Virus record (IMG/VR): IMGVR_UViG_3300035698_003456
Location: 1 to 41,303 of that record
Origin: a virus
Strand: one strand, 5' to 3'
DNA length: 41,303 nucleotides
Part shown: positions 5,998 through 41,259 of the stretch, piece after piece
Position numbering within the stretch: the stretch's first letter is position 1
Layout: every line of letters begins with the position of its first letter
Notes under the pieces: model-generated
Databases searched by the model: none
Told to the model about the DNA's origin: nothing
The model's input: only the letters and a program-made list of their open reading frames with translations
Program-made: the position numbers and the translations under genes

Positions 5998-5999
5998 GC

Positions 6000-22215: not shown

Positions 22216-23204
22216 TGGCAACCATCACAAAAAAGATTGGTTCGGATGGTGCCCCAACCAGGGACTATGCCACCGCTACGCTCCACGAAGCGGCCCTGGG
22301 CGGTGCGGCCGGCGGGGCGGGAAACGATGCTGTTGGCGACTGCTATGACGATAGCGATTTCGCGGAGGTGGTACGCTACGATGATGAGACGCCCGATGCC
22401 ATTTTGATAAAGGCAGCCGACGGCGAGGAACACGACGGCACGGCGGGCACGGGTGTTACATTCACCGCTGGCAGCAATACGGCCGGCGTGTTTGAGGTGT
22501 CGGCATGCGCGAAGCCGTTCGAGGTGCGGGGCATCGTAATAAAGCCCACCGCAGCGGGCACGCTGGCCACGCGAAAAGGAATACACCTAGCCCGGAACGG
22601 TACGGATAGAGTTGTCCGCTGTATAGTCGATGGCGTGGGTTTGGAGGGCACAGGCACAGGCCACATCGGCATATGCGGTTATCGCGATGATGCAATAATT
22701 CTCGACTGCATCGTGCTGAACATCCCGCGTGCAAGCAGTCATGGCGTGCTGCTGGGTGGCTACGCCGAGGATTCCTACGTCCTGAACACGACCGTCTACA
22801 ATGTTGCTGGCGAGGGCATTTCAGACGAGGACGAAACCGCGACAACCGTTCGCAATAATATAAGCGTCGGTAACGGTACTGATTTTGCCGGGGCTCCGAA
22901 TGTCGCATCGAATAATCTATCGACCGACTTGACCGCACCGGGGGCCAATTCGCTCACGGGTAAGGCGGTTGCCGACCAATTTGTTTCGACTGTTGGCGGC
23001 AGCGAAGACCTCCACCTGAAAGCCGGAGCCGATGCGATTGGGGTTGGCGTGGACCTTGGGCAAGTGCCGGCTGATGTAGAGTTCGATATTGACAATTACG
23101 ACAGGCACACGGCGGCTGTGGTCTGGGACATTGGAGCGGATCAGTATGTAGCTGTGGCAACCGGCAACCGTCGCCGCCGTTTTTTAGTATCCTGTGGGGC
23201 TTGA
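22215..23204 (+). CDS. Right-handed beta-helix appendage protein (tailspike-like)
   Basis: 329 residues. After an N-terminal block (DGAPTRDYATATLHEAALGG) the sequence shows stacked short strands and turns typical of a parallel beta-helix: FEVRGIVIKPTAAG, KGIHLARNGTDRVVRCIV, GHIGICGYRDDAIILDCIVL, SHGVLLGGYAEDSYVLNTTV and TTVRNNISVGNG. Such folds bind or cut surface polysaccharide in phage tailspikes. A catalytic pair is not evident, so binding is as likely as depolymerisation. The C-terminus DIDNYDRHTAAVVWDIGADQ recalls the end of DUF1565-like helices. Confidence 0.7.
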   Translation: MATITKKIGSDGAPTRDYATATLHEAALGGAAGGAGNDAVGDCYDDSDFAEVVRYDDETPDAILIKAADGEEHDGTAGTGVTFTAGSNTAGVFEVSACAKPFEVRGIVIKPTAAGTLATRKGIHLARNGTDRVVRCIVDGVGLEGTGTGHIGICGYRDDAIILDCIVLNIPRASSHGVLLGGYAEDSYVLNTTVYNVAGEGISDEDETATTVRNNISVGNGTDFAGAPNVASNNLSTDLTAPGANSLTGKAVADQFVSTVGGSEDLHLKAGADAIGVGVDLGQVPADVEFDIDNYDRHTAAVVWDIGADQYVAVATGNRRRRFLVSCGA

Positions 23205-23205
23205 T

Positions 23206-26076
23206 ATGTACGCAAAATTAGCTACAGCAAAGACAATCCTTTTCGGTCCAATCCTGGATACGGACGGGGATGAATATACGGGTGCGGCGGTTGGCGACCT
23301 CAAAATCTGCAAGAACAACGGCACGCCCGCAGCCCTGAACGGATCGGCAACCCTGACTCACAAAGAGGTCGGGATGTATGAGTTGGTGCTGACGACCAGC
23401 GACATTTCAGCAGTAGGCGTTGCGACAATCCAGCTAAGCAAGACTACCTACGTTGCCGCACCGGTTCACCTGGACGTTCTGCCGGCTAAGATTTACGACT
23501 CGCTGGTAGGCGGAACTGATAACCTCGAAGTGGACCTGCTGCAAATTCTCGGTCACCTACTCACGCAGACTGGAACACAACTGGCCGACGGCTTCGAGCA
23601 TTTCTTCGACGTGGGCACGCCTACTGGTACGGTGGATAGTTTGCCTGCCGCCGCCCCTGGAGCAACGGGCGGTCTTGCCGTTCGAGGTGGTGCAATTCCC
23701 GATGCCGCTGCCGACGCTGCTGGTGGCCTGCCGGTCAGCGATGCTGGCGGGTTGGATATGGACGCGATTTTGTCGAGTGTGAAGAAAATCGCAAGCGGTA
23801 CGGCGGCGATCAGTACCACGGCGTTGGCTGCCGATGGTGGATTCGTAATCACCACAGGCACAAACGAAAACAACGACGAAGACTCTACGCATCAACTGAA
23901 CGGCACGACGCACGACCTGGAACCTAATGGCGGAACGACCGACTGTTATTACATCTTCGATGTCGGTGGTAGCGGTGTACCTGTTACGGTGACGTGGCAG
24001 GGATACGTCAACGCTCAAGGCGACACTTATACCGTTCACGCCTACAACTTTGGCACGTCTGGCTGGGAACAAGTGGATTCGATAGACGGAGCCAGTGGTT
24101 CGACTGTGTTTCCCAAAGTTTTCGATTTGACAAATGCTCACGTCGGAACGGGTGCAAATCTCGGCTTGGTTCATTTACGATTCTACTCGACTGACGGAAC
24201 AAAGCTCGCCACTGATAGAATCTTTTGCTCTTATTCCGTGGTTTCGGAGTCCTCCGGCTACCAAAACGGCGCTATTTGGGTCAAGGCCGCAGGCACCTCT
24301 GGGACAGAGTTCCTTGTCAACGGGACAGCAGGCAATCCGTGTCCATGGGCTGACGCTCTTGTCATCGGTTCCGCGAATGGTATGAGCCGCTTCCATATCA
24401 TCAACGGGGAGACAATTACGCTAACTGCCGGACTCACGAATAGCACGTTGGAAGGCAACGAGTGGACTCTTGCATTAGGCGCACAGGCTATCTCTGGCTG
24501 TCACTTCGAGGACGCAAGGGTATCGGGAGTATCCAGCGGCACCGGCAATCACTTCTGTAGGTGTGAGATCGACACGGGCTCCTATGCTGAATGCACTTTC
24601 GAGCTGTGTGGATTTGATGGCGGCTCGACGATCACTTTGCTCAGTGCTGCAACATACCGGATGGTTGATTGTTATACCAAGGGTCCGGCTCCGGCTCCGA
24701 TATTCGACTTCGGAGCGGCTGTTGCAAACACCACGGCGATGTTCGCTTATTGGGCTGGTGGCTTGGAGATTGCGAACTTCGGAGCGAACGGAACTGATAA
24801 GATTAACTTGCACGGGAGCGGCAGGCTAACCATTGCTGCCACTAGTACGGCTGGCACAATCGGGATGCACGGATTCTGGAACATAACGGATAACGTGGTT
24901 GGTGGATTCGTTGCGGGTGGCGGTACTATCAATGATGATGCCCGCTACACCGTGGACCAGATCAACGCCGAGTGTGATTCGGCTCTGAGTGATTGGGGCA
25001 AAACTGGGTTCAGTTTACTCTCAACTGGCATGAATTCAGTTGAGCTTCCCGCTGACATCATCACAGCCGCGTCGATCAAAACAGGGGCGTTCAGTGCGGA
25101 TGCCTTTGCTGCGGATGCTCTAGTGGCAGCTACGTTTGCTGCAAGCTCGCTGGACGGCAAGGGTGATTGGAGCACGGTAGTTCCTGATGCTGCGGGCGTT
25201 GTAGCGACCGCGCTGGGCAACCTCGAAACACACGGCGATAGCACATGGGCAACGGCGACGGGGTTTAGCACCCATACTGCGGCCAACGTGGTAACGGAAC
25301 TTGGAACTGGTAGCACGCTTACAGCCTGCATAACGGCTGTGGGTTTCAGCACTCACGATGCCGCTGCCGTGGTCACGGCCTTTGGGACCGGCGACTGGCT
25401 CACTGCTTGCCTTACCGCCACGGGCTTCTCGACACATGACGCTGCCGCTGTAGTGACGGCACTTGGGACCGGCTCGACGCTCACGGCTTGTCTCACTGCG
25501 ACGGGCTTCAATACCACGGCTCCCGACAACGTCAATATCGGTGTAGCTGCCACGCAAGCCACGAACGCCGCTGCCGATGCGGCTACCATCAAGGGCGACT
25601 ACGCCCGGCGTACCGGCGATTACAACACGGCGGTTCCCGACGTGGCCGGCACTGCGTCAACGCTTATCGGCAACTTGCATGACTTTGATCCGGTGAATGA
25701 TACCGTGACGACTGATTCGGACAGCCGCACGGCAAGCAAGGCTGATGTAGGCGAGATCAAGGCCAAAACCGACGGGCTGAACTTTACCGGCAGCGACGTG
25801 AAGGCAACCCTCGATGGCGAAGAGGTCACAACCGACAGCGATAGTCGCACGGCCAGCAAAGCGGATACGAGCGGACTCGCCACGGAGGCGAAGCAGGACA
25901 CCGCCAAGACCGCTATCGACGGTATCAAGACGCAGACGGACAAGCTGGCTGACACACTGGAAGACGATGACGGCACGTATCGGTTTACCGAGAACGCACT
26001 GGAAGAGGCTCCTACAGGCGGCGGGGCGGAGACCGTCAACGTGGAAATCGAAGCAGACGAAATCACAATCGAATAG
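23206..26076 (+). CDS. Large repeat-containing appendage/tail protein
   Basis: 956 residues from ATG 23206 (a GTG at 23194 is an alternative; neither has a strong ribosome site). The N-terminal 90 residues (ILFGPILDTDGDEYTGAAVG, KEVGMYELVLTTSDISAVG) form a beta-sandwich resembling the start of the 26086 protein. The centre has CBM-like strands and beta-helix-like turns. Near residue 686 begin three 27-residue repeats (GFSTHDAAAVVTALGTGSTL type), then a helical DSRTASKADTS region and an EDDDGTYRFTENALEEAP end. I infer an elongated fibre or baseplate-like appendage that binds the host surface. Confidence 0.68.
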   Translation: MYAKLATAKTILFGPILDTDGDEYTGAAVGDLKICKNNGTPAALNGSATLTHKEVGMYELVLTTSDISAVGVATIQLSKTTYVAAPVHLDVLPAKIYDSLVGGTDNLEVDLLQILGHLLTQTGTQLADGFEHFFDVGTPTGTVDSLPAAAPGATGGLAVRGGAIPDAAADAAGGLPVSDAGGLDMDAILSSVKKIASGTAAISTTALAADGGFVITTGTNENNDEDSTHQLNGTTHDLEPNGGTTDCYYIFDVGGSGVPVTVTWQGYVNAQGDTYTVHAYNFGTSGWEQVDSIDGASGSTVFPKVFDLTNAHVGTGANLGLVHLRFYSTDGTKLATDRIFCSYSVVSESSGYQNGAIWVKAAGTSGTEFLVNGTAGNPCPWADALVIGSANGMSRFHIINGETITLTAGLTNSTLEGNEWTLALGAQAISGCHFEDARVSGVSSGTGNHFCRCEIDTGSYAECTFELCGFDGGSTITLLSAATYRMVDCYTKGPAPAPIFDFGAAVANTTAMFAYWAGGLEIANFGANGTDKINLHGSGRLTIAATSTAGTIGMHGFWNITDNVVGGFVAGGGTINDDARYTVDQINAECDSALSDWGKTGFSLLSTGMNSVELPADIITAASIKTGAFSADAFAADALVAATFAASSLDGKGDWSTVVPDAAGVVATALGNLETHGDSTWATATGFSTHTAANVVTELGTGSTLTACITAVGFSTHDAAAVVTAFGTGDWLTACLTATGFSTHDAAAVVTALGTGSTLTACLTATGFNTTAPDNVNIGVAATQATNAAADAATIKGDYARRTGDYNTAVPDVAGTASTLIGNLHDFDPVNDTVTTDSDSRTASKADVGEIKAKTDGLNFTGSDVKATLDGEEVTTDSDSRTASKADTSGLATEAKQDTAKTAIDGIKTQTDKLADTLEDDDGTYRFTENALEEAPTGGGAETVNVEIEADEITIE
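25261..25503 (+). repeat. Three 81-bp tandem repeats in the appendage gene
   Basis: Units start at 25261, 25342 and 25423, each encoding 27 residues beginning GFSTH and ending LTAxxTA. A diverged fourth start (GFNTT) is at 25504. The second and third units are most alike. Confidence 0.85.
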
Positions 26077-26085
26077 GAATCGACA

Positions 26086-27360
26086 ATGGGATCAAGGACG
26101 ATCCGAGCCCGATTTAAGGTAAATGGAGTCTTGACCGACCCGACAACGGCCAAGCTCTCTGATGCTGATGGTACGTATGGCGTCAAGCGTGACGACACCG
26201 ATGCGGTAGTGGTCGCCGATGGTACGGACATGACTCAGGAATCGGCGGGCATCTACTCGTATACCTTCGATTCCGTGGAGGGCGTTGCCTATACGGGCTG
26301 GGCGGAATTCGTATACGGCGGCAACACCTACCGTCGCGAATATCAGTTTGCGGCTGCCAGTTCGTCCACCAGTGCCGATCTGACCGTGACCTACGGGTCG
26401 CTGCGCCGGGAAATCGGCCGCTTCCTCGGTTACGGCCGCGACCCGAGCGAATGGGAGTCCAGTTCAGAAGAGTATATCGACGTGGAGGATGTGCTTAAAA
26501 GCGGCATCCGAAAGGTGCTGAATCCACCACCCCTGCCCCGCGAAAAATACGCCCATGAATGGTCGTTTTTGCGCCCCAATGATTCCTTTTCTACGGTAGC
26601 TCCCTACACCACAGGGACGGTCGAGGTCGTCGATGGCGTGGTCACGCTCACTGGCGGCACTTGGCCGTCCTGGGCCATTCAGGGGCATCTGACAATCGAG
26701 TCCGGCACCTATTCGGTGGCGACGCGCAGCGGTGACACGGAGATCATTTTAGACGACACCACGGTCGATGCTAATGCCGCGACTACCTTCAGCCTTGGCC
26801 GCACCGTGTACGATATGCCAGACGATTTCATGGACATCGAGGGGCGATTAACTTACGCCACGGGCCAATCCCTACTGCGAAGCGTTGTAGTGCGGATAGC
26901 CGTGCAGCAGGTACTCAAGGAGTTGACCTACACCTACAGTTCCGGCTATCCGCGAAAGTTCGCCATTCGGCCCAAGGCGATCGACATGACTGCGGCGACG
27001 AAATACGAGATGCTCCTCTGCCCAACGCCGGACGCCGCCTACACTTTCAATTACCGCTACCGGATTGCGATACCGGGGCTCGACGAATCAAACACTACTC
27101 CGCCCGGCGGCGATGCGTACGGCGAACTGTACCTGGAAGCCTGCCTAGCGGCGGCTGAACAGAAGCTTCACGACACCGGCGATTTACATTCAGCCCGATT
27201 CACGGAATGCTTGGCGGCGGCCGTGTCGCACGACCGACAGGTGGCGTGTCCCGATACGCTTGGCATCAACCATGATTATTCCGACGGTCCCGCGTTTGAC
27301 TCCGAGGACCATCTTTTCACCAACACGGGGCTTACCCGATACGACGGCTATCCGCCGTAA
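26086..27360 (+). CDS. Head-tail adaptor/connector-like protein with N-terminal beta-sandwich
   Basis: 424 residues, AGGAA upstream. Residues 1-90 form a small beta-sandwich (FKVNGVLTDPTTAKLSDADG, ESAGIYSYTFDSVEG, GNTYRREYQFAA) like that at the start of the preceding protein. The rest (YGSLRREIGRFLGYGRDP, IDVEDVLKSGIRKVLNPPP, TVYDMPDDFMDIEGRLTY, AYGELYLEACLAAAEQKL, ECLAAAVSHDRQVACPDTLG) resembles phage adaptors that sit under the portal, with the helical end typical of tail tubular protein A-type gatekeepers. The N-terminal domain would be a decoration. Assignment is by pattern. Confidence 0.65.
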   Translation: MGSRTIRARFKVNGVLTDPTTAKLSDADGTYGVKRDDTDAVVVADGTDMTQESAGIYSYTFDSVEGVAYTGWAEFVYGGNTYRREYQFAAASSSTSADLTVTYGSLRREIGRFLGYGRDPSEWESSSEEYIDVEDVLKSGIRKVLNPPPLPREKYAHEWSFLRPNDSFSTVAPYTTGTVEVVDGVVTLTGGTWPSWAIQGHLTIESGTYSVATRSGDTEIILDDTTVDANAATTFSLGRTVYDMPDDFMDIEGRLTYATGQSLLRSVVVRIAVQQVLKELTYTYSSGYPRKFAIRPKAIDMTAATKYEMLLCPTPDAAYTFNYRYRIAIPGLDESNTTPPGGDAYGELYLEACLAAAEQKLHDTGDLHSARFTECLAAAVSHDRQVACPDTLGINHDYSDGPAFDSEDHLFTNTGLTRYDGYPP

Positions 27361-27398
27361 ACTTCTGACAACTAATTGTTCTTTTTCGGAGAGTAAAA

Positions 27399-27770
27399 AT
27401 GAGTGGTCATCGCCTTCCCCATGACTTGATGATGTCCTCCTACGAGAAGGCCGATCCCGGAACGGGAAACGCTATCGTAGTGGACCGCTGGAACTTAATG
27501 GTTCCGTTTACTATCGTTGCTTCGGCGTCGGAAACCAACACCCTGGCGACTCCGACCAGACCCGGCCAGAAACTTAGTCTGGTTGCGGTTTCGGTCGGGG
27601 GTGGTGGTTCACGGGTTGTTACGGCGGCCAGTGCGGTAAACCAGAATGGCGACACCGCAATGACCTTCGATGCGGTGCGAGAATTGGTGCAATTGGAGTC
27701 AATTCCAATCGGCAGCAGTTCGTACCGTTGGCAGATCATGCTCAACGAGGGTTCCGTCGCATTGTCCTGA
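27399..27770 (+). CDS. Small virion protein, beta-rich
   Basis: 123 residues after CGGAGAG. It contains short strands (MVPFTIVASASETNTLATP, KLSLVAVSVGGGGSRVVTAA, GDTAMTFDAVRELVQLES, YRWQIMLNEGSVALS), the usual look of small virion proteins repeated many times per particle. It is the last structural gene before the glycan island. A 5-bp hairpin (27769-27782, GACCA-ATTT-TGGTC) overlaps its stop codon. Confidence 0.65.
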   Translation: MSGHRLPHDLMMSSYEKADPGTGNAIVVDRWNLMVPFTIVASASETNTLATPTRPGQKLSLVAVSVGGGGSRVVTAASAVNQNGDTAMTFDAVRELVQLESIPIGSSSYRWQIMLNEGSVALS

Positions 27771-27805
27771 CCAATTTTGGTCCTTGCCCGCAGAGGGTGT
27801 GTATT

Positions 27806-28840
27806 ATGCGAGTGTTGTTTTTGACTCCGGGATTGGGTCTCGGTGGTGCCGAATGGTGGATCCTCACGCTTTGCAAGCATTTTCAACGGGTAGATGTGGC
27901 TGGCATTTATGCCTGCACCCGCAGCTACCACCGGATCATGGTGAGCGAAGCGCGGCGGCTGGGAATCCCGCTTTTGGTGCCTACGGAAGAGGTCCAGTTC
28001 GATGCGGTGATTACGTGGGGAAACGATGCCGTTCGGCAGGTTATCGGGGAGTTTGCAGGCCCCGTGATCGAGGTTGCCCACAATTCGCCGGAGCTAAAGG
28101 AGGTGCCCCCGTACTTGGACAGGATGTGCGAACAAGTCACTCACTACGCCGCAGTGAGTGCATCCGCCGCGCGCGGATACCCTCCAGAGTACCGGGACCG
28201 GGTTCGAGTGATCGAAAACGGTGCGGACCCGGATCGCCTGGTGCCCCTGCATACCCCGGAATTCTACCGGGAACGATGGGATTTGCGGCCGGATAGCAAG
28301 ATTGTCTTGCAGATGGGCCGCATGACACGGAATAAGCGGCCCGACCGGCTGATCTCCGCTTGCTCCCATCTGCCGGACAACTGGGTTCCGGTGATCTGCG
28401 GCGAAGGGCCTGAGTTGTCGATTTCCGTGGAAATGGCGAAGCAGAGCGGCCGGAAGATGATATTTTGCGGGGCCACGCCGGACATCGGCGGATTGCTCCA
28501 GATAGCGGATGTTGTCTGCCTGCCCAGTGAATCCGAGGGAATGCCCCTGGTGCCCCTGGAAGCCTGGCTTGCCGGAACTCCAGTGGTAACTACTCCTTTT
28601 CCGGCGATGAAGGACTTGCATGATCGCTGGGGGAAGGTGGTATGTCTGGTGTCGGAGAATCCGCAACCCGAAGAGCTTGCCGCCGCAATCGTCAGTGCGA
28701 GCCATACCGTTGATGTTCAGCACGCATTTAATGTGGCCAGCGAGAACTATACGGCCGAAGTTATGACCCGCCGATGGGAAGACTTTCTCTTGGAAGTGGG
28801 CTCAAAAGTGACCCCTGAACCGGAGTATTGCCATGTCTGA
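27806..28840 (+). CDS. GT4-family glycosyltransferase
   Basis: 344 residues from ATG 27806 (GAGGGTG upstream). The product transfers a sugar from a nucleotide donor to an acceptor with a GT-B fold. The N-terminus MRVLFLTPGLGLGGAEWWI is the usual acceptor-lobe start. VIENGADPDRLVP and LQMGRMTRNKRPDRLISA mark the interdomain and donor lobe, and CLPSESEGMPLVPLEAWLAG carries the E-x7-E-type donor-binding motif. No signal peptide or span is visible. It opens the glycan island. It overlaps the next gene by eight bases. Confidence 0.88.
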   Translation: MRVLFLTPGLGLGGAEWWILTLCKHFQRVDVAGIYACTRSYHRIMVSEARRLGIPLLVPTEEVQFDAVITWGNDAVRQVIGEFAGPVIEVAHNSPELKEVPPYLDRMCEQVTHYAAVSASAARGYPPEYRDRVRVIENGADPDRLVPLHTPEFYRERWDLRPDSKIVLQMGRMTRNKRPDRLISACSHLPDNWVPVICGEGPELSISVEMAKQSGRKMIFCGATPDIGGLLQIADVVCLPSESEGMPLVPLEAWLAGTPVVTTPFPAMKDLHDRWGKVVCLVSENPQPEELAAAIVSASHTVDVQHAFNVASENYTAEVMTRRWEDFLLEVGSKVTPEPEYCHV

Positions 28841-29462
28841 TCTTAGCCCAGACCAAGCGTTTGAGTTATTGGGTAAACCACATCCGGTGGTTTTGGAGAT
28901 TGGCGCTAATGACGGTGAAGACAGCGCTCGTTTCGTGGAACGTGGAGCCAGGCTACTTGCCTTTGAACCGGACCCGCGGGCGGCAGCCAAGTGGCGCGAG
29001 CGAATTGGGGAGAGGCCCAACGCATGTCTCTTTGAGTATGCGATATCCAACCATGACGGCACGGCGACATTTTATCAGTCGGGCGGGCAGCCGCCAAACC
29101 GTCCCGACGTGGACGACTGGGACAAGAGCGGGTCGCTGTGCAAGCCGACTGGGCACTTGTCCTATTCGCCCTGGTGCCACTTCGACAACGAAATTGTGGT
29201 ATGTACTAGCAAACTGGATTCCTGTACGGAACATTGGGGCTGTCCCCTGATAGATTTAATCTGGATGGATGTGCAGGGTGCCGAAGGGGAAGTGCTAAAG
29301 GGCGGCCAAGAGACGCTTCCCAAGGTACGATGGATTTACATGGAATGTCACGACCAAATCCTCTACGACGGGCAGTTGACTCAAACCGAACTGGAAGCCT
29401 TGATACCCGGATTCAAGTTACACACGAAGTTTTCTTATAACCTACTGTACGAAAGAGAGTAA
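28833..29462 (+). CDS. FkbM-type SAM methyltransferase 1
   Basis: 209 residues. VVLEIGANDGEDSARF (19-34) is the SAM-binding motif I, LLAFEPDPRA the acidic motif II, EYAISNHDG and LDSCTEHWG typical later blocks, and LIWMDVQGAEGEVLKGG the FkbM signature. The family usually O-methylates sugars or polyketides. Together with the neighbouring glycosyltransferases it probably caps or tailors a sugar. A central insertion (QPPNRPDVDDWDKSGSLCKP) is longer than usual. Confidence 0.85.
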   Translation: MSDLSPDQAFELLGKPHPVVLEIGANDGEDSARFVERGARLLAFEPDPRAAAKWRERIGERPNACLFEYAISNHDGTATFYQSGGQPPNRPDVDDWDKSGSLCKPTGHLSYSPWCHFDNEIVVCTSKLDSCTEHWGCPLIDLIWMDVQGAEGEVLKGGQETLPKVRWIYMECHDQILYDGQLTQTELEALIPGFKLHTKFSYNLLYERE

Positions 29463-29464
29463 AC

Positions 29465-30181
29465 GTGCGGAAATTTATCCCGAACCAGCATCTTGAGACT
29501 TCTTATCCGGTCAACCGCAACACGGTGAACTTGGTTATTTTCGGGGTGCCCAGATCGGCGAGTACCTTCACTTGGCAAGTGATGAGCGACATCTACGAAA
29601 AAGGGGTGATTCGCACGCATTGCTTCTTCGACATCTCGCCGGCCATTCCCGTGGTTTGCACGGTGCGCGATTGGCGGGATGCCATCGTGTCCTACTGGCG
29701 GTCCCATTATCCGGACGTAACCTGCATGGAGCAAGAAGACATTTACCAGTACGTGGCCCGTTATCAGGAGTTTATTTGGACCCTGCGAGCTTGGATGCAA
29801 GCCCACCCCAATTCTCCCGTGTTGCGTTATGAGAACACGATTGCTCACCCGGAATGCTTATTCAAGGTGGCAGAGGATTTGCGCGGCCCGCAGGTGACGC
29901 CCGAACGTCGCGAGACAATACTGGAGGCTCATAGTGTGCGGGTGAATCGAGCCATCGCTAATAATCTCAAAGTGCAGGACAGAAACACCCTTTTAGCACC
30001 AAGACACGTCCACGAAGCCGAGTCTGGCAAGTGGCGAGACTTCGTGGATGACAAAGGGGCCGCGCTGTTGACGGACTTGTTGCGAGAGGAACTAGAGGAA
30101 TGGGGGTATGATGCGAGTGATCCCAGTACCAAAAAGCCTACAGAACCGCAGCCAGCAAAGCCTAAGCCGGACGCGGGGTAG
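29465..30181 (+). CDS. PAPS-dependent sulfotransferase
   Basis: 238 residues from GTG 29465 (AGAGAG upstream). The 5'-phosphosulfate-binding loop is GVPRSASTF (27-35), and the 3'-phosphate-binding motif is TVRDWRDAIVSYW with R68 and S76. A C-terminal HVHEAESGKWRDFVDD fits the usual G-x-W-region of the family. It should transfer sulfate from PAPS to a hydroxyl or amino group, here most likely on a sugar made by the neighbouring enzymes. Residues 220-238 are a Pro/Lys-rich tail (KKPTEPQPAKPKPDAG). Phage-encoded sulfotransferases are uncommon. The host must supply PAPS, as no sulfate-activation genes are in the window. Confidence 0.82.
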   Translation: MRKFIPNQHLETSYPVNRNTVNLVIFGVPRSASTFTWQVMSDIYEKGVIRTHCFFDISPAIPVVCTVRDWRDAIVSYWRSHYPDVTCMEQEDIYQYVARYQEFIWTLRAWMQAHPNSPVLRYENTIAHPECLFKVAEDLRGPQVTPERRETILEAHSVRVNRAIANNLKVQDRNTLLAPRHVHEAESGKWRDFVDDKGAALLTDLLREELEEWGYDASDPSTKKPTEPQPAKPKPDAG

Positions 30182-30479
30182 AAATTGTGAAGAGGCGATG
30201 CTTGATTGGAAGGAAACCAAGCAAGCAAAGTCTTCGTGGACGTTTCTTCCCGTTACCTGGTGGATGAACGGTGTTCGGCAGCAGGTTCGCGAGCATCACA
30301 AGGAAATTCGAGCGGTTCCTGAAGTTCAGGACTTTCTCGACGGTCTGCCGCCGGGAAGATATGTCACGGTTGCCAGGGGAGATGACGGGCCTTACGAGCG
30401 ATTGCCAAGGGAAACGATAGTGTTTGGCGCGGACTGCGGGGATATTCCAGTGCCACTTTTGCCACCGGAAGCCAGATGA
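30108..30479 (+). CDS. Half-length paralogue of the next gene (exostosin N-terminal lobe)
   Basis: 123 residues. The start at 30108 is chosen because similarity to the next protein extends to it (IPVPKSLQNR vs IDVPNELQAK; RGRNCEE vs RGWNIEE), although this makes a 74-base overlap with the sulfotransferase. The core matches clearly: (F/Y)(L/V)PV-x-WW, R-x-VP-x-V-x-x-F, LP-x-x-R-x-x-TV-x-RG-x-DG-x-YE-x-x-PR-x-x-x-VF. It then stops, lacking the donor-binding half of GT47. It may be a non-catalytic partner or decaying duplicate. The stop overlaps the next ATG as ATGA. Confidence 0.7.
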   Translation: MMRVIPVPKSLQNRSQQSLSRTRGRNCEEAMLDWKETKQAKSSWTFLPVTWWMNGVRQQVREHHKEIRAVPEVQDFLDGLPPGRYVTVARGDDGPYERLPRETIVFGADCGDIPVPLLPPEAR

Positions 30480-31402
30480 TTATAGACGTTCCAAATGAAT
30501 TGCAAGCGAAGCGGATGTCACCCGGCATGGACCGGGGGCGGGGCTGGAATATCGAGGAACATTTTCACAATTGGTTGCGGGTCAATGCTGTTGATCCGCC
30601 AATGCCTTACGTGCCGGTGTACTGGTGGAATAATGCCATGGTCGGCTACTGTGAGAACCCACGAGAGGGATTCCGTCGTGTGCCGGCCGTGGAGCAATTC
30701 ATTGAGACGCTTCCCCGCGATCGGTGCTTTACCGTATCGCGAGGAGCGGACGGAATCTATGAGGACGTGCCCCGCAAGATGCTCGTGTTTTCCTCCGGGG
30801 GCACCGGAGACTTTGCCATTCCATTGCTGTGTGAGTTAGAGGAAGGACCAACGATGGATAAGACCGTGCTGGCATCGTTTGTGGGCAATCTCTCTCCGGG
30901 CGGCCCCGAGGAACCGCGCCCGGTTAGACGATCGAGTTCCAATCTCAACGGAGTGGGAACCCGCATACGGCGGAAAATGGCGGAAGCGTTCGAGGGGCAA
31001 AAGGACTGTGTGATTCGAGAACAGCACATGATGAGTTGGTCGTCAAGCGAAAGGGTTCGCCATCAGCAGTTCTGCGATATTGCCGCTTCAAGCTGGTTTG
31101 GATTGGCACCACGAGGTTACGGTAAGACAAGCTACCGGCTCTACGAGATGATGCACTTAGGGACCATACCAGTATACATCTACGATGAGCCGTGGCTGCC
31201 ATATCTGGATCAGTTGGATTGGCGGCGGATTGCCGTATTGTGTCACGAATCGGAATTGCCGGAACTGCCGGATCGTTTACGGGCGATTTCCATGGGCCAA
31301 CGCCAAGCGATGTTGGCTCGCGCCGGGGAATTGCTTGAAGATTACTTTACCCACGACGGCGTGTGCCGACAGATTATCCAATACATGGAGCAAATGGGAT
31401 GA
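30476..31402 (+). CDS. Exostosin-like (GT47) glycosyltransferase
   Basis: 308 residues. The N-terminal 115 residues are the lobe shared with the previous gene (YVPVYWWNNAM). The C-terminal half has the GT47/exostosin donor-lobe pattern: FCDIAASSWFGLAPRGYG, TSYRLYEMMHLGTIPVYIYD and a WRRIAVLCHESEL block. Exostosin-type enzymes transfer sugars such as glucuronate, galactose or GlcNAc; the donor here cannot be decided. Together with a sulfotransferase it brings to mind sulfated glycan synthesis. The stop overlaps the next start as ATGA. Confidence 0.78.
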   Translation: MIIDVPNELQAKRMSPGMDRGRGWNIEEHFHNWLRVNAVDPPMPYVPVYWWNNAMVGYCENPREGFRRVPAVEQFIETLPRDRCFTVSRGADGIYEDVPRKMLVFSSGGTGDFAIPLLCELEEGPTMDKTVLASFVGNLSPGGPEEPRPVRRSSSNLNGVGTRIRRKMAEAFEGQKDCVIREQHMMSWSSSERVRHQQFCDIAASSWFGLAPRGYGKTSYRLYEMMHLGTIPVYIYDEPWLPYLDQLDWRRIAVLCHESELPELPDRLRAISMGQRQAMLARAGELLEDYFTHDGVCRQIIQYMEQMG

Positions 31403-31941
31403 GCTTCCCTGTTGATGAAGCAAATAAACTCAGGCAAGAGTACGGATTGACGTGCTTCGTTGAATCCGGCACTGCCAACGGCCGCACAACCAAGCAGTGT
31501 GCCGAGTGGTTTCAAAAGCTGTGGACTATCGAGGTCAGCCCTCACGCATACGTCCGCGCGAGGCACACGCTCAAGGACTGCGAGAACGTGACCACTATGT
31601 TGGCGCAATCGGTTCACGCAATTCCCTTGATCCTTCCGCAACTGACTGGTCCAACGCTGTGGTGGTTGGATGGGCATTGGTCCGGTTCCGGGCCGCGGTA
31701 TGCAGTGGAATGCCCGCTCTTGAGGGAATTGCAGGAGATCGGCGGATTGCGCGAATCGGACGTGATCCTAATTGATGACGCCCGCTTGCTGATGAATCCG
31801 CCGGGCGACAATCATCGGCCGGAAGAGTGGCCGACATGGATGGACATGCAGGATATGTTGGAGGACTGGCCGGAAGAACCAGCGATGAGGCTTCTGGGAA
31901 ATGATACCCCCGACGATGTAATTGTATTGACGAAACCATGA
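31399..31941 (+). CDS. Class I SAM methyltransferase (TylF/Methyltransf_24-like)
   Basis: 180 residues from ATG 31399. CFVESGTANGRTTKQCAEWF is the SAM-binding loop, LWTIEVSPHAYVRARHTL the motif II region, TLWWLDGHWSGSG and VECPLLRELQEIGG the later blocks, and DVILIDDARLL the catalytic-side Asp pair. The pattern matches small O-methyltransferases of sugar and antibiotic clusters. It overlaps the genes on both sides by four bases, consistent with a single translational unit. Confidence 0.78.
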   Translation: MSFPVDEANKLRQEYGLTCFVESGTANGRTTKQCAEWFQKLWTIEVSPHAYVRARHTLKDCENVTTMLAQSVHAIPLILPQLTGPTLWWLDGHWSGSGPRYAVECPLLRELQEIGGLRESDVILIDDARLLMNPPGDNHRPEEWPTWMDMQDMLEDWPEEPAMRLLGNDTPDDVIVLTKP

Positions 31942-32624
31942 CCGATTTACTGAAACGCTTGGAGCCATTCCAACAAACCTATACCTATCGCGAGGTTGTC
32001 GCGCGGGACAATTACCGGATGCGGTTGATAGCATCTCCCGAGGCTATCTACGACATCGGGGCGAACCGCGGCATCTTTACTTTGTGGGCCAAGCATTGCC
32101 ATCCGAAAGCGGAGATAATCGCAGTTGAAGCCGATGCTGATAATTTTGCAACATTGGAAGGGGTCTGCCAGGGCATTGAGGGAGTCAACATTATGCACGC
32201 GGCATTGGGCAACGGCCCGATTTATCACCGCGTATCGGATGACCCGGGGAAGCATTGCTACCATTCAGAACAAGTGGGTTACAGTCGCGAATCGCTGGAG
32301 TCCTGCAAGTCGCTTCACCGGGTAAACGTAAGGGCCATATCTTTGGGCGAACTATTGCGGGACGAGAAGCGAAAGTATGCCTTGAAGATCGACGTGGAGG
32401 CCGCAGAGGGGGTGCTGCTTAACGATAGGCTGGCGGAAGTCGCGTTCCGTCGCGCGGAGTATGTGGCGATGGAGTTGCATTTCTGGGCGATGGAGAAGAG
32501 GCATAACGAAGAGGCGGCCACGGCTCGTTTGTGCTGGTTGGCACAGTTCCGCGACACTCACTGTTTGGAATTTCAGATGTGGAGGAGTGGCGGCATGGTC
32601 TGGATGACAAAGCGAGGAAAATAA
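31938..32624 (+). CDS. FkbM-type SAM methyltransferase 2
   Basis: 228 residues starting in the ATGA overlap. AIYDIGANRGIFTLWAKH is motif I, IIAVEADADNFATL motif II, and YALKIDVEAAEGVLLND the FkbM signature. The sequence is clearly different from FkbM methyltransferase 1 in the same island, so the two probably modify different positions. The stop overlaps the next start as TAATG. Confidence 0.82.
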   Translation: MTDLLKRLEPFQQTYTYREVVARDNYRMRLIASPEAIYDIGANRGIFTLWAKHCHPKAEIIAVEADADNFATLEGVCQGIEGVNIMHAALGNGPIYHRVSDDPGKHCYHSEQVGYSRESLESCKSLHRVNVRAISLGELLRDEKRKYALKIDVEAAEGVLLNDRLAEVAFRRAEYVAMELHFWAMEKRHNEEAATARLCWLAQFRDTHCLEFQMWRSGGMVWMTKRGK

Positions 32625-33541
32625 TGGGAGTTATCACGTTTTCGCAGTTCGGGCGGCACGGCCGCTGGGGAAACCAGCTTTGCCAATACGCCTTTCTGGC
32701 TTGCTATGCTCGCCGGTATGGATGCGAGTTGCAATTGCCTCCCTGGGTTGGCAATCATTTGCTGGATGCGGTGAATCCTCCAATAACGGCGCGGCTGCCG
32801 GCATACCGTGAGGTATTGTCGGATGGTCCGCACAGCCACCCGGTTGCGCCTGAAGGCGCGGAGATAGTCAATCACGAGTTCCGGGGATACGCTCAACACC
32901 ACACCGGCTGGTATAGCGAAGAGGAGCGGGACGCGGTACGGCTGTTGTTCGCACCATCAGGGGGCGCTTTGCAACAGGTGCAAGCGGCCACGGAGACGAT
33001 GGCACCGGATGAACATACATGGGTCGGTCTGCATTATCGCCTTGGGGATTATGGTCGGATGATCTTTCCGATTACTCCGCTGAACTGGTATCAAAAGTGG
33101 TTGGATTCACATTGGGAAGGGCTGGTGCGTCCCAAGCTGTTTATCGCCGCCGAAGACCCGAAGATCGTGGATGTCTTTCGCGAGTATGATCCAGTTACCA
33201 CAGCGGACCTCGGTGTTTCCCTCTCCGGCAAGCCAATGGATGGCTATTCGTACTTACGGCACGATCTGAAAGTTCGAGAGCCGTGGCAGATGGACTTCTT
33301 CCCCGACTGGTATCTGCTTTCGCGCTGCAATGTGATACTGGCACCCAACAGCACATTTTCGTTCACTGCGGCGATGTTGGCACCAAAGGTTCAATTGTGG
33401 CGGTCACATCTGCCAACACAGACGTTCCGCAAGATTGATCCGTGGGATGCCTGGCCGCTGCAACGCGATTGGGTGGAACATTATCCCGACGTATCTGGAA
33501 TCCGGCATCCAATGGGCAAGGAGAATCCACGATGGGATTAA
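32624..33541 (+). CDS. GT11-like (alpha-1,2-fucosyltransferase-type) glycosyltransferase
   Basis: 305 residues from ATG 32624. GRWGNQLCQYAFLACYARRYG (short form GRWGNQLCQYAF) is the typical GT11 N-terminus, VGLHYRLGDYG corresponds to the H-x-R-x-GD donor motif and LAPNSTFSFTAAMLA to the SNSSFSWW-type motif near the end. The second and third motifs deviate (Y for V/I, F for W), so the donor sugar may not be GDP-fucose. No GDP-fucose synthesis genes are in the window. Overlaps the next gene by ten bases. Confidence 0.75.
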   Translation: MGVITFSQFGRHGRWGNQLCQYAFLACYARRYGCELQLPPWVGNHLLDAVNPPITARLPAYREVLSDGPHSHPVAPEGAEIVNHEFRGYAQHHTGWYSEEERDAVRLLFAPSGGALQQVQAATETMAPDEHTWVGLHYRLGDYGRMIFPITPLNWYQKWLDSHWEGLVRPKLFIAAEDPKIVDVFREYDPVTTADLGVSLSGKPMDGYSYLRHDLKVREPWQMDFFPDWYLLSRCNVILAPNSTFSFTAAMLAPKVQLWRSHLPTQTFRKIDPWDAWPLQRDWVEHYPDVSGIRHPMGKENPRWD

Positions 33542-34293
33542 AAGTCACTGTTTGTTGCTGCACTTACCGTAGGCCGGTTCTACTGAGCCACATGATCGAG
33601 TGTTTTCAGCAGCAAAGCTACCAGAATCGGCACATGGTTATCCTCGACGATTCGCCCTGTGCCGTGGGAGCTTCCGGGGATCGGTGGGAAATCGTTACTT
33701 CGGCTCGTTTTCCCACACTGGGGGCGAAGCGGAATGCGTGCGCGGAAATGGCCTCGGATGATACCGACGCTTTGGTTGTCTGGGATGATGACGATCTGTA
33801 TTTTCCGTGGGCCTTGCAGGCGACGGCCGCCGCGTTGGAAAACGCCGATTGGAGCCGGCCGTCGGAGTTTTTGATGCTAGACGATGACTACAGATTGCAC
33901 AAACACGAAACTTTTAGCCGAGAGGATCGAAAAGATAAGTGCTGCCAATCGTCGTGGGGCATTCGCGTGGATACGTTTTGGAACGCGGGTGGATACGACA
34001 AGCAGTTGTCTATGGGGGAGGATAAGGCACTGGCTCTTGCAATCGAGGGGGCGGCGGAGTGTGATCCGATTACCCTTGGCTACGAGCCGTGGTACGTGTT
34101 TTCTCCGTACCATAATGTTCATTTGTCAGACCTGATTCAGGAGTATAATGATTTTGACGGGGGCGTGCGAAATTACCGGTTCGTTACCTTGGCAGCACTG
34201 AAAATGGAATCCGCGTTGCCGCGTGCAGAACAACGACCTTGGAAAACCGATTGGTACGGAGGCATGGATGCCACCCCGATTCAAAAAACGTGA
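33532..34293 (+). CDS. GT2-family glycosyltransferase
   Basis: 253 residues from ATG 33532 (AAGGAG at 33518). KVTVCCCTYRRPVLLSHMI is the GT-A start, MVILDDSP the donor-binding strand, GAKRNACAEMA the family helix and VVWDDDDLYFPWAL the D-x-D metal site. GGYDKQLSMGEDKALAL contains the ED catalytic region. It is a soluble enzyme. It closes the glycan island; its end overlaps the next virion gene by 26 bases, so the island is joined to the structural genes without a gap. Confidence 0.85.
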   Translation: MGLKVTVCCCTYRRPVLLSHMIECFQQQSYQNRHMVILDDSPCAVGASGDRWEIVTSARFPTLGAKRNACAEMASDDTDALVVWDDDDLYFPWALQATAAALENADWSRPSEFLMLDDDYRLHKHETFSREDRKDKCCQSSWGIRVDTFWNAGGYDKQLSMGEDKALALAIEGAAECDPITLGYEPWYVFSPYHNVHLSDLIQEYNDFDGGVRNYRFVTLAALKMESALPRAEQRPWKTDWYGGMDATPIQKT

Positions 34294-35896
34294 GTTACGG
34301 TTCCCGACCCGTGGCGTAGAACGCCGTCGCGAACACCGTGTCACCGTGGATTTTCAGCCGCCCTTCCCCTCGCCATGGGCGTGCAATGTTCGCCCGGAAG
34401 ATCATCTGGCCCGTCGCATTCGCGGCGGGTCTCGGCCGGGGCTGACCGAGTGGATGACCGACCTGAGCGGGCAGACAATCGCTGGGCTCGTCTCGATACC
34501 AATTGTCACGGAAGATGGGGCAGTCAATAAGCTGGCAGCGATTTCCGACGAAACCCTCGGCGTGTTTAGTGGAGGAGATTATTCCACCCCCACGGGACAA
34601 TTGCTGACGGGAGCCGGAGTCGTTATTCAAACCGAAGCCGAGGATGACATCTTAGTGGGCGCGGGAAGCGTGCCTGCGGGGAGTTTCAGCCAATGTACTC
34701 TTTTTGGTGCCGGACGAAGCGTATATGCAATCGCTTCCACGGGGTCAGTGACGCAAATGGACCTCACTACTGGAGCGGTCGATACCTTGACCGCCGAAGA
34801 CGGCACTGTTCCGGTGGACGCCACGCTCGGCTGCGCCTATCGAGCCCGCCTCGTGGTGGCAGGCGAAGACAACGCCATCTATATGTCCCGACAAGGCAAT
34901 CTTACCGATTGGGATTGTGGGGCCGACGTGGGCGACTCTGGCCGTCCGCTAGTGTTTCAACTTGCTGAAGCCGCCGAAATGGGGGCGCACCCAACCGCCC
35001 TGATTCCCTTTCACGATCAATCCTTATTGGCGGCAACCGAGTGGGGGCTGTGGCTATTGACCGGCGACCCGGCGGCCGACGGCGGACTGAGGAATATATC
35101 TCGCGGGATCGGCTGCCTGGGGCCGTCCGCGTGGTGCCACATCCTGGATGCGCAAGTGGGCGATACCCCCGTGCGGTATGCAGCGGTATTCCTGGGCAGC
35201 ACCGGGCTATGGATGGTGGCCTCCAGCGGGGACGGACTGCAATCACTCAGCGAGGATCGGTTGCCCGAAGAGTTGCGCGACGTGGATACGTCTACCACCA
35301 CGGTATCGCTCATCTACTCTCCGGCGGAACGCGGCATATACATCTTCCTCACGCCCGAGTCGGGGATAGGCACGCATTTCTTTTTCGATCTGGTTCGGAA
35401 GGGCTTTTGGCCGGAACGCTTTCAGTCTACCCACCAACCGCTGACGACTGCCTGGCACGAGGGGAAGGTGTTGCTGGCCGGTTCCGACGGGACGATTCGC
35501 TACGTGGGCGGCGACGACGACGACGGGGAAAACATCGAAAGCCATGTGTTGATCGGCCCCATGAGAATGGCGGGCCCGGACACGTTCGGCCTGCTGACGC
35601 GAATACACGGCATGGTCGCGGCCAGCAGCGGAACCGTGACGTGGCGAATCATTACCGGCGAAACAGCCGAGCAGGCATGTGACCGGGGGAAGCTCGCCAT
35701 CGAAGCCTACCAGGACGAAGATATTGCCGGGGCGGAAAAATATACGTCTTCGGGGGCGACTTGGGGGGCGGGCAGGGCGAACACTCGCTATCCGCGGGTT
35801 CGCGGAATGTGGATGTGTGTTTGGTTGAGGGCAACCACCCAGTGGGCTTACGAGAACATTACAATCGAGTCCCGCGAAGCGGGAAATTGGAGATAA
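34268..35896 (+). CDS. Beta-propeller-like tail protein (tail nozzle/stabiliser type)
   Basis: 542 residues from ATG 34268 (GGAGG shortly upstream). After a basic N-terminus (RFKKRELRFPTRGVERRRE) the sequence shows repeated four-strand units: SVYAIASTGSVTQMDLTTGA, ARLVVAGEDNAIYMSRQGN, QSLLAATEWGLWLLTGDP, TTVSLIYSPAERGIYIFLTP and GKVLLAGSDGTIRYVGGD. This looks like a propeller, as in podovirus tail nozzle proteins. It ends in a beta segment (WAYENITIESREAGNWR). Together with the adaptor-like gene it is the main reason to think of a short-tailed particle. Confidence 0.68.
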   Translation: MPPRFKKRELRFPTRGVERRREHRVTVDFQPPFPSPWACNVRPEDHLARRIRGGSRPGLTEWMTDLSGQTIAGLVSIPIVTEDGAVNKLAAISDETLGVFSGGDYSTPTGQLLTGAGVVIQTEAEDDILVGAGSVPAGSFSQCTLFGAGRSVYAIASTGSVTQMDLTTGAVDTLTAEDGTVPVDATLGCAYRARLVVAGEDNAIYMSRQGNLTDWDCGADVGDSGRPLVFQLAEAAEMGAHPTALIPFHDQSLLAATEWGLWLLTGDPAADGGLRNISRGIGCLGPSAWCHILDAQVGDTPVRYAAVFLGSTGLWMVASSGDGLQSLSEDRLPEELRDVDTSTTTVSLIYSPAERGIYIFLTPESGIGTHFFFDLVRKGFWPERFQSTHQPLTTAWHEGKVLLAGSDGTIRYVGGDDDDGENIESHVLIGPMRMAGPDTFGLLTRIHGMVAASSGTVTWRIITGETAEQACDRGKLAIEAYQDEDIAGAEKYTSSGATWGAGRANTRYPRVRGMWMCVWLRATTQWAYENITIESREAGNWR

Positions 35897-35900
35897 GGCA

Positions 35901-38648
35901 ATGGGATATGTAATTGGAGCCGACGGAAACCCCAGCGTATCGTCGCTGGTGGGAACGGAAATCTTCGTCTGCCGGCAGACTACGGTGAAGGACTGCACTT
36001 CGTCGATTATTGCCGGGTACGTGATAGACGAGTTGCTTGGGTCCGACGCGGCCGATCCGACCACCGGAGACAACCTGGTGGCCGAACGAGACGGCACGGA
36101 AAAGCTGATGGACCTGGACGATCTGGCGGCCTATTGCGTGGCTTCAGGTTGGGGTGTAGCCACGGAGGCGGACCCAGGCACGGCTGCCGACAAGTTCCTG
36201 GTCAACCGTTCTGGTACGGTCTACGAACTGGACATCGACACGGTTGCCACCTACATCTTGACCGGTATGCAGGGCGATGCCCTGGACATCTCCGGTCTTG
36301 ACGAAGCGACATTGACGCAAGCCGATCAGTATCTAATCGTCCAGGGCTCAACAGCCAAGAAGACTACCTGGGAAGACATTGCCGATCGGGCACACGATCA
36401 GTTTTCGACCTATTTGGGCACGTTGGGTGCTGCCAGTTCGGTCGGTAGTGCGGACAAGCTATACACCACGCAACTGGGGACGGCAAAATATGTCACTCCC
36501 TCCAGAATTGCAACTTACGTGCAATCGGCGATCTCCAGCGACGTGACGGAAACCATCTTTGATTCCGACGCTGTTGATCCCCTGCTGGGAACTGATGTAC
36601 TGCCCGCCGAGCGGAGCGGCACGGCAAAGACGGCCACGGGGGCGGTGGTTGCTGCCTATGCGGTTACGACGCTGGGCGATGCGGATGCGGTTGACCCGGC
36701 CACCACGGGAGATGATATAGTCCTCTTCCGTTCCGACACGGAAAAGCTGATGGACATCGACGTGCTTTCCTCGTATGTCGGAACGCAAGAGTTGGCAACC
36801 GCGTCGGGAACACCATTGACCAGCTTTGCCGAATCGGACCTCGTAGTGTTGGGGCGGGCAAATGCCTTGCGAACAATGGACTACGAGGACTTCCGATCTG
36901 GAATACTCAATATCAGCGGACTTAGTACCGCCACGTTGGCTGACAGCGATAAGTATTTGATCGTCCAGGGTACAACCGCCAAAATAAACACCTTTGCCAA
37001 TGTGGCGGAACGGGTACACGATCAGTTTAGTACGTATCTCGGCACGCTAAGCCCCACAACGTCGCTCAGTGATGCCGACAAGATTTACACCACTCACTTA
37101 GGCACCGCGAAATATGTTACTGCGTCGCGAATCGCAACTTACGTGGAGTCCGCGATCTCTTCGGACGTAATATCCACAGCCATGGATTCAGCCGCAGTGA
37201 ACCCGACACTGGGGACCGACATACTCATCGTCGAGCGAAGTGGCGTGCAAAAGACAGCTACCGGCGCGGTCTTGGCCGCTTATGCGGTTTCGGCCCTGGA
37301 CGATGCCAGCGCGGTTGACCCGGTAGCTGCCGGCGACGATTTCATTCTCTTCCGTTCTGGAACAGAGCAAAAGGCGGACATAGATGTGCTGGCCGCGTAC
37401 ATCGGTGACAAGGTGGCGGCGACCGAATCGGCATCGCTGGTAGACCCGGTAGTTGGCACGGATGCAGTGATGCTGGCCCGATCCGACGCGATGATTGCGA
37501 CCGACGTTGATACCCTAAGCGATTACGCACTTACCCAAGACGGTGAAGGCAGCGTGCTGCAAACCTCCGTGCTGACAATTGATGCACTGGGCGCTGCCAC
37601 GCTGGCCGATGCGAACTACCTTCTACTGCAAGACGGTACGCCAAAGCAGAAAACACTTGGGGACGTAGCCGACCATATCAACGACAAGATCGCTGCTTAC
37701 GTTGGGGACCAATCGGATGCCGACCCGATCGTGGATACCGATCTGTTTCTGGTTGATCGTGTTGACACGGCAATGTATATCGGGGCGTCGGACCTGAGCA
37801 ACTATGTGCAGAGCCGGGTGTGGGATCAAACTACCGATACCGATCCCGTTGCCGGGGATCAGATGTTGAGCTACCGTTCGGGGACCGGCTACTTGAAAAC
37901 TACCATGTCCGACCTCAAGGACTACGTGGTTGACGACCTGGAAGCGGCGGCATTGACCAGTGTGGCAAGCGGTTGGAACATAGTGGGCACTGACGATTAC
38001 ACCGCTACGCCAAGCAGTACCAGCCGAATCCTAATATCCGACACAACGAACATGGAGGTTGGCCTGCCTCTGCGCTACACCTATGACGGCACGGCCTATT
38101 ACGGAATCGTCGAAGAGGTGTCCACGAACTCGTACATCGACGTGCGAGGCGCAACGCTGGACACCGGCGAGGACCTTACGGAACTTGCCCACGGTTTGCC
38201 CAGTCTGGCGGAAACGGTGCGGTTGCAGATCGAAGGCTCCTACCTGGTGCCGTGGTATATCCCCGACTCGGATGCGGATGCGGATGGCGTGGGCGACTCA
38301 GAAGTGACGGAGGAATTGCTGGCGGATATTTCGCGGCGATATTTCAATTGGCGTGGCGGCCCGGCCCACTTGGTCGCGATGGCGGTTACCCAGCGCACGG
38401 CCGACGATACGGCACAGCCAAAGTTTGGCGTGCAGGTGGACTCCGTCGATGTGTTCAGCGAAGACACAAACAAAGGCCCGCAAATCTCCGCTACGTCGGG
38501 AACCTGGGCATGGAACTCCAAGGTGGCCGTTGCCACCGGGGCCTACAAGATTGAGACCGGGGATGACCTGGAGATCATCTGTACGGCGAACGGTTCCAGC
38601 GGCGAGGCTTCCGACGTAAGCGTTGAACTGGTCTTTGTCTACGAATAG
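35901..38648 (+). CDS. Long repeat-built tail fibre
   Basis: 915 residues, acidic, very rich in Asp/Ala/Thr/Val. It is made of about 40-45-residue units with the pattern VDP-x-x-GTD-x-L-x-x-x-RSGT ending in (L/V)AAY. On a larger scale a 208-residue block is duplicated (see repeat). The C-terminal 230 residues are different: TAYYGIVEEVSTNSYIDVRG, ETVRLQIEGSYLVPWYIPD and KVAVATGAYKIETGDDLEII form a beta-rich terminal domain that probably contacts the receptor, while the repeats form the shaft. GGAGATAAGG precedes the start. Confidence 0.78.
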   Translation: MGYVIGADGNPSVSSLVGTEIFVCRQTTVKDCTSSIIAGYVIDELLGSDAADPTTGDNLVAERDGTEKLMDLDDLAAYCVASGWGVATEADPGTAADKFLVNRSGTVYELDIDTVATYILTGMQGDALDISGLDEATLTQADQYLIVQGSTAKKTTWEDIADRAHDQFSTYLGTLGAASSVGSADKLYTTQLGTAKYVTPSRIATYVQSAISSDVTETIFDSDAVDPLLGTDVLPAERSGTAKTATGAVVAAYAVTTLGDADAVDPATTGDDIVLFRSDTEKLMDIDVLSSYVGTQELATASGTPLTSFAESDLVVLGRANALRTMDYEDFRSGILNISGLSTATLADSDKYLIVQGTTAKINTFANVAERVHDQFSTYLGTLSPTTSLSDADKIYTTHLGTAKYVTASRIATYVESAISSDVISTAMDSAAVNPTLGTDILIVERSGVQKTATGAVLAAYAVSALDDASAVDPVAAGDDFILFRSGTEQKADIDVLAAYIGDKVAATESASLVDPVVGTDAVMLARSDAMIATDVDTLSDYALTQDGEGSVLQTSVLTIDALGAATLADANYLLLQDGTPKQKTLGDVADHINDKIAAYVGDQSDADPIVDTDLFLVDRVDTAMYIGASDLSNYVQSRVWDQTTDTDPVAGDQMLSYRSGTGYLKTTMSDLKDYVVDDLEAAALTSVASGWNIVGTDDYTATPSSTSRILISDTTNMEVGLPLRYTYDGTAYYGIVEEVSTNSYIDVRGATLDTGEDLTELAHGLPSLAETVRLQIEGSYLVPWYIPDSDADADGVGDSEVTEELLADISRRYFNWRGGPAHLVAMAVTQRTADDTAQPKFGVQVDSVDVFSEDTNKGPQISATSGTWAWNSKVAVATGAYKIETGDDLEIICTANGSSGEASDVSVELVFVYE
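36288..37535 (+). repeat. Two tandem 624-bp units in the fibre gene
   Basis: The unit starting ISGL at 36288 recurs at 36912, exactly 624 bases (208 codons) later. Shared strings include QYLIVQG/KYLIVQG, HDQFSTYLGTL, LGTAKYVT, SRIATYV and AISSDV. Third positions differ widely, so the duplication is old. A shorter third relative follows (ANYLLLQDGTPKQKT, 37615 on). Confidence 0.8.
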
Positions 38649-38660
38649 GAGAATTAACCG

Positions 38661-41255: not shown

Positions 41256-41259
41256 GACA

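Follow-up and report, generated by a model that had tools for sequence, protein, structure and literature searches.

What does a virus gain from a run of glycan genes set among the genes for its own particle, and what would their product decorate? The question is raised by a stretch of DNA of 41,303 nucleotides from IMG/VR virus record IMGVR_UViG_3300035698_003456, hereafter the window, in which nine genes at positions 27806-34293 are predicted to encode glycosyltransferases (GTs), methyltransferases and a probable sulfotransferase. A reading of this DNA made from the sequence alone had described a sulfated, methylated glycan island embedded in virion genes, with a product that might decorate capsid or fibres or coat the host cell surface. 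Here we find that the island lies in a conserved cargo slot that related viruses have repeatedly refilled with glycan genes. By inference from those relatives, we assign a probability of roughly 0.6 to the window's cassette glycosylating the virion.

A conserved cargo slot repeatedly refilled with glycan genes

We used the structural gene on the left border of the island, the neck gene, as bait. Relatives of it are encoded at 84 viral loci, 80 of which were kept. A profile search placed the gene that borders the island on the right downstream of the neck gene in most loci, a synteny that holds across dozens of viruses. The interval between the two borders could be listed in 61 loci, some of them near-copies of one another. 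It is short (about 1 kb or less) in 38 of these and holds small virion proteins and little else, and in at least 12 further distinct viruses the same slot is occupied by glycan genes of other kinds.

This cargo is varied. A single GT4 gene stands alone in L075, L077 and L079, and a GT4 is joined by a Stf0-type sulfotransferase in L005. L061 and L087 hold an eight-gene set that includes a B12-radical S-adenosylmethionine (SAM) enzyme, and L045 (11594-13450) and L085 (10720-12582) encode sialate O-acetylesterase-like (SASA) proteins. A cassette of the form GTx-methyltransferase-(sulfotransferase)-GT2-GT2 fills the slot of L004, L008, L010, L014, L048 and L059 and is found in L012 and L039 with one border visible; its sulfotransferase is present in L004 and L059, and gene calls in L008, L010 and L012 are based on tblastn. 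The slot sulfotransferases belong to three Pfam families, one in the window, one in L004 and L059, and one in L005.

Slot content changed at least seven times on the neck tree. The sequence-only reading had suggested looking for the same gene set in relatives, and that set was not found in their slots: GT4 is the only glycan gene of the window with a tblastn homologue in the slots of relatives. The cargo has therefore been replaced by different enzymes, rather than varied within one set. Taken together, the interval is a conserved cargo slot that has been repeatedly refilled with glycan genes, and its varied contents suggest that such viruses swap kits for sugar-coating their own particles.

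Some slots hold further features. The B12-binding radical SAM enzyme at L061:6227-7471 lies within a glycan cassette and matches methyltransferase-like profiles. The N-terminus of the L085 SASA protein is a domain of smallB, the small virion protein that follows the neck gene in the window. In L014, an HNH/NUMOD3 homing-endonuclease-like gene (7009-7875) interrupts the cassette between its methyltransferase and GT2 genes.

Mucin-like tails and a GalNAc-transferase-like enzyme in relatives

The clearest pointer to an acceptor comes from viruses with the GTx cassette, which encode virion proteins with long Ser/Thr/Pro repeats. The smallB copy directly upstream of GTx ends in a mucin-like tail in 10 of 11 such viruses, most often terminating in SPSAT. 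The last GT2 gene of the cassette, GT2b, gave a 321-position profile that matches PDB entries for polypeptide N-acetylgalactosaminyltransferases (GalNAc-transferases) at 3e-12, most strongly over positions 166-257.

Tail and enzyme occur together. Among 118 dereplicated clusters, tails are present in 37 of the 70 with GT2b and in 2 of the 48 without it. Both clusters with a tail and no GT2b are fragments of viruses that possess the gene: L086 belongs to a record that carries GT2b, and L019 overlaps L004, from the same metagenome, by 433 bases at 97%, so that they probably represent neighbouring pieces of a single virus or of closely related strains. When loci were sampled by tail, GT2b lay on the records of 5 of 11 tail loci compared with 1 of 89 other loci. 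A scan of DNA patterns for Ser-Pro repeats was noisy, returning mostly off-frame matches or plain Pro-Ser linkers, and a mechanical tail filter was therefore applied. No mucin-like tail was seen in any relative shown to be cassette-free.

The AlphaFold model of smallB resembles in structure the tailspike domains of phages (Acinetobacter phage Solidus, CBA120 TSP4), T4 gp9/gp10 and the capsid spike of Pa223 (Foldseek E from 3e-4 to 3e-2; Z 7-11). Because this is a spike or fibre-domain fold, it suggests that the smallB tails of relatives are exposed on the particle surface. These results strongly suggest that one cassette type, in relatives only, is paired with mucin-like acceptor tails on virion proteins. 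The relatives thus offer a phage-coded candidate for a polypeptide glycosyltransferase, and the tail presumed to be its acceptor is encoded beside it.

Tails also occur in other settings. One virus can carry them on several different proteins, several of which share the C-terminal SPSAT in the manner of a tag. Mucin-like tails lie at L010:9920-12343, L008:11523-12338, L014:11541-12410 and L048:19551-20210. In L010 the tail is continuous with the right-border protein; in L008 and L014 it occupies a separate frame that starts at the end of that gene, and may represent either an extension by frameshift or a new gene. L273 (an 84-kb record) and L280 have genuine Ser-x-Ser-Pro tails, and no GT2b was found on their records; these tails may be served by another enzyme, or the repeats may need none.

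The nine genes of the window and their setting

The architecture proposed by the sequence-only reading was borne out. All nine open reading frames (ORFs) are present, unbroken and on the plus strand. Plus-strand ORFs of at least 120 amino acids fill 99.97% of 27806-34293, whereas minus-strand ORFs fill 16% and 200 simulated first-order Markov sequences gave a mean of 12% and a maximum of 52%. Starts of the third methyltransferase (31399), GT11-like (32624) and GT2-like (33532) genes were taken from homology. In order from GT4, the junctions are an 8-nt overlap, a 2-nt gap, a 74-nt overlap and overlaps of 4, 4, 4, 1 and 10 nt, and the GT2-like gene runs exactly 26 nt into the right-border gene, as had been read; six of the nine junctions are overlaps of 1 to 10 bases. 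The 74-nt overlap between the half GT47 and the sulfotransferase gene is real, because homology begins at codon 4. Promoter-like sites in 26000-36200 are no more frequent than chance. The claim that nucleotide-sugar synthesis genes are missing also stands: neither these nor genes for synthesis of the sulfate donor 3'-phosphoadenosine-5'-phosphosulfate (PAPS) turned up in the window genes covered by the Pfam scans. The nine island proteins gave no Pfam match to a flippase, polymerase, priming phosphotransferase or Gtr-type protein.

Table 1. The window, the nine island genes and the genes that border them.
Feature	Position in window	Strand	Basis
Window, viral contig fragment (G000)	41,303 bases		
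Neck gene, conserved structural gene, left border	26086..27360	+	weak PHROG match to head/packaging virion structural protein
smallB, small spike-fold virion protein	27399..27770	+	AlphaFold model pLDDT (predicted local distance difference test) 90
GT4 glycosyltransferase	27806..28840	+	PF00534 2e-25; E-x7-E motif in sequence
FkbM-family methyltransferase 1	28833..29462	+	PF05050 2e-19; TIGR01444 4e-25; both above cut-off
Probable sulfotransferase	29465..30181	+	PF00685 (Sulfotransfer_1) 2e-4, 21.2 bits vs cut-off 22, just below
Half GT47, N-terminal part only	30108..30479	+	partial paralogue of next gene
GT47 exostosin-like glycosyltransferase	30476..31402	+	PF03016 3e-15, 56.6 bits vs cut-off 33.4
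Third methyltransferase, probable class I	31399..31941	+	Pfam 0.15 (not significant); NodS-like 0.003; motif only
FkbM-family methyltransferase 2	31938..32624	+	PF05050 1.5e-8; TIGR01444 1e-16; both above cut-off
GT11-like glycosyltransferase	32624..33541	+	PHROG 2644 'glycosyltransferase' 2.7e-8; HxRxGDY-like motif in sequence
GT2-like glycosyltransferase	33532..34293	+	PF00535 2.4e-5, 24.8 vs 23.3 bits, marginally above; DDDD metal motif
Conserved structural gene, right border	34268..35896	+	42-46% relatives adjoin same neck and smallB genes

As predictions from sequence, the GT4, the two FkbM methyltransferases, the GT47 and the GT2 are secure, and the names first given to them and to the half GT47 hold; those of the sulfotransferase, the GT11-like protein and the third methyltransferase are less secure. 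The GT47 matches EXT1 (1e-6), EXTL3 and EXT2 in the PDB and is 30% identical to a protein of cyanophage S-SKS1. Its 123-residue neighbour is 37% identical over 118 amino acids to its N-terminal part, is missing the conserved C-terminal half and matches no GT47 model in Pfam; this half GT47 may act as a non-catalytic partner. The putative sulfotransferase displays both PAPS-binding motifs (GVPRSAST and VRDWRDAIVSY) and has no PDB match. Hence the product is probably sulfated, on the basis of a Pfam match just under its cut-off and recognisable PAPS motifs. The GT11-like protein falls below the PF01531 cut-off (0.06; 13.0 bits vs 23.9) and likewise has no PDB match. Neither these last two proteins nor the right-border and neck genes have a match among cultured phages.

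The flanks were read correctly in part. A small virion protein does precede the island, and the gene that follows is a conserved structural gene syntenic with the neck gene; the propeller fold proposed for its product was left unconfirmed by a model with pLDDT 45.

The contig IMGVR_UViG_3300005935_003148 is 100% identical across window positions 22079-41303 and continues 96 bases beyond the window end, so the window is a fragment. No provirus was found in a genome scan using the right-border gene profile. Elsewhere in the window, the fibre-like gene at 35901-38648 contains an internal duplication (36323-36781 and 36947-37405, 68% identity over 459 bases), and repeats also lie within 23194-26076, including 25251-25509. 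An ORF among the structural genes (19057-19644) has a lipoprotein-like N-terminus with a weak LPAM_1 match. Two genes for DNA methylases, one N6/N4 and one C5, lie in the early region together with a gene each for DUF5131 and DUF1064; the coordinates listed for the four are 1123-1869, 4518-5201, 2317-3774 and 5994-6410, and an early gene at 7036-7680 has an Ala/Ser/Trp repeat tract (ASASASASAW).

Candidate acceptors, alternatives and known systems

We propose that the nine genes form a swappable glycan-modification cassette in a cargo slot of the virion operon, whose order is neck gene, small spike protein, slot and structural gene. The cassette would be expressed late, alongside the virion genes. 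Its GTs would assemble an oligosaccharide from host nucleotide sugars, which the methyltransferases and sulfotransferase would cap. The likeliest acceptor would be a surface-exposed virion protein, namely smallB, the right-border structural protein or the product of one of the fibre-like genes after it. The outcome would be a methylated, sulfated particle coat that differs between strains and could alter adsorption, stability or recognition. We prefer virion glycosylation because the slot takes glycan-active cargo and the acceptors that can be guessed are virion proteins.

Several observations weigh against this proposal. The window has no mucin-like tail, and no GalNAc-transferase-like gene was found in it by tblastn or in the identical contig G044 by the enzyme profile; the acceptor link seen in relatives is therefore not directly transferable, and the idea of the window itself as a mucin-type system was dropped. 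Among the relatives, L059 has the cassette, yet the stretch covered shows no tail. Related viruses share both traits, and the independent cassette-versus-tail pairs number only four, of which three to four agree and none oppose; this is not significant, and so few pairs could not give a significant result. On the neck tree, the window groups with L017 and L018, and these nearest relatives have no glycan genes in the slot (that of L017 holds a trypsin-like protein). It follows that the nine-gene set either arrived on the branch leading to the window or disappeared from both of the others.

The serious competitor, though an unlikely one in our judgement, is that the cassette remodels the host surface (capsule, lipopolysaccharide or S-layer glycan), for instance to block superinfection or aid release, and sits in the late operon only for timing. 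Host clusters for surface polysaccharides often contain GT4, GT47, FkbM and sulfotransferase genes, the GT4 has many sub-threshold NCBIfam matches to exopolysaccharide or lipid GTs, and the window offers no identifiable acceptor tail. However, the island is without the flippase, polymerase, priming phosphotransferase or Gtr match noted above, and relatives combine cassettes in this slot with a spike-fold virion protein that bears mucin-like tails. Of the two targets that the sequence-only reading had named, the tails of relatives thus favour virion decoration, although tail and GalNAc-transferase-like gene are both missing from the window. The same acceptor association, together with the position of the island inside a virion operon, makes it improbable that the glycan is built on something other than a surface protein, such as a lipid, a secreted product or a small molecule, with methyl and sulfate groups protecting it, even though FkbM, GT4 and sulfotransferase enzymes also act in glycolipid and natural-product pathways.

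We consider it least probable of all that the island is a recent bacterial passenger without phage function. The sequence-only reading had named two signs of such a pick-up, and they came out split: the island is indeed missing from L017 and L018, but the analysis turned up no host cluster that matches it, and in more distant relatives the same place is taken by other glycan cassettes. Island GC is that of the contig, and codon usage correlates between island and virion genes (r 0.915) as it does between virion and early genes (0.917). The closest GT4 relative found is that of the L005 virus, at the same locus and 41% identical, compared with at most 28% in sampled bacterial genomes; cultured phages reach about 25-32%. 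Scanning genomes with the GT4 profile yielded only two weak bacterial relatives; since that scan was pattern-based, the GT4 comparison counts as evidence for a viral lineage but does not prove it. Tight gene coupling extends through the right border, and no frame is broken. Recent host pick-up is therefore not favoured.

Extending virion glycosylation to the whole group gives a more tentative picture, to which we would give somewhat less than even odds: an uncultured tailed-phage lineage with an exchange site in its virion operon, in which the window would make an O-methylated, sulfated spike or fibre glycan and its relatives would carry out mucin-type O-glycosylation with a GalNAc-transferase-like enzyme and repeat-tail acceptors. 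If this holds, these phages diversify their particle surface chemically through cassette exchange, not only through receptor-binding proteins. Sulfation and methylation by phage enzymes would matter for the recognition of phages by cells and antibodies.

How does this locus compare with known systems? The gtrABC systems use the membrane proteins GtrA and GtrB and modify host O-antigen. They resemble the window in that phage-coded GTs alter a glycan, but neither a GtrA flippase nor a GtrB bactoprenol glucosyltransferase is present among the nine island proteins by Pfam. Cyanophage S-SKS1, a 208-kb phage, encodes its GT47 relative in a gene run with a fucosyltransferase; unlike the window, it has GDP-fucose synthesis genes, and the cluster is not among virion genes in the annotated stretch.

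Closer in presumed function are mycobacteriophages Che8 and Rita, whose phage-coded GTs are thought to act on virion proteins (PMC11256854), and some actinobacteriophages in which a methyltransferase accompanies the GT (PMC13313380). Like the Che8 type, the window encodes several GTs, with GT4, GT47 and GT2 above Pfam cut-offs. The mycobacteriophage system differs in its small number of genes, which in Maravista lie close to the end of the genome, and in the lack of a conserved cargo slot flanked by neck and spike genes; no sulfotransferase or GT47 is mentioned for it. Among viruses of eukaryotes, chlorovirus PBCV-1 encodes A075L, annotated as an exostosin and inferred to add xylose to the capsid N-glycan (PMC9614988). 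The window shares with it a virus-coded multi-enzyme glycan pathway and a GT47 that distantly matches AO75L, but PBCV-1 is an algal virus, and a slot cassette is not described in that source. Moumouvirus and related giant viruses have GT clusters with methyltransferases or sulfate-metabolism genes that give clade-specific sugar coats (PMC9614988); unlike the window, these clusters bring their own nucleotide-sugar synthesis and build a fibril polysaccharide.

Viral contigs with sulfotransferase genes have been noted previously (PMC8290583). The literature we covered, which is incomplete, holds no account of a virion-operon slot for glycan cassettes, of phage mucin-like tails with a GalNAc-transferase-like gene, or of a phage GT47 together with a sulfotransferase. 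Phage-coded virion glycosylation is thus already known; within that coverage, what appears to be new is the slot, together with the probable sulfation and the pairing with mucin-like tails.

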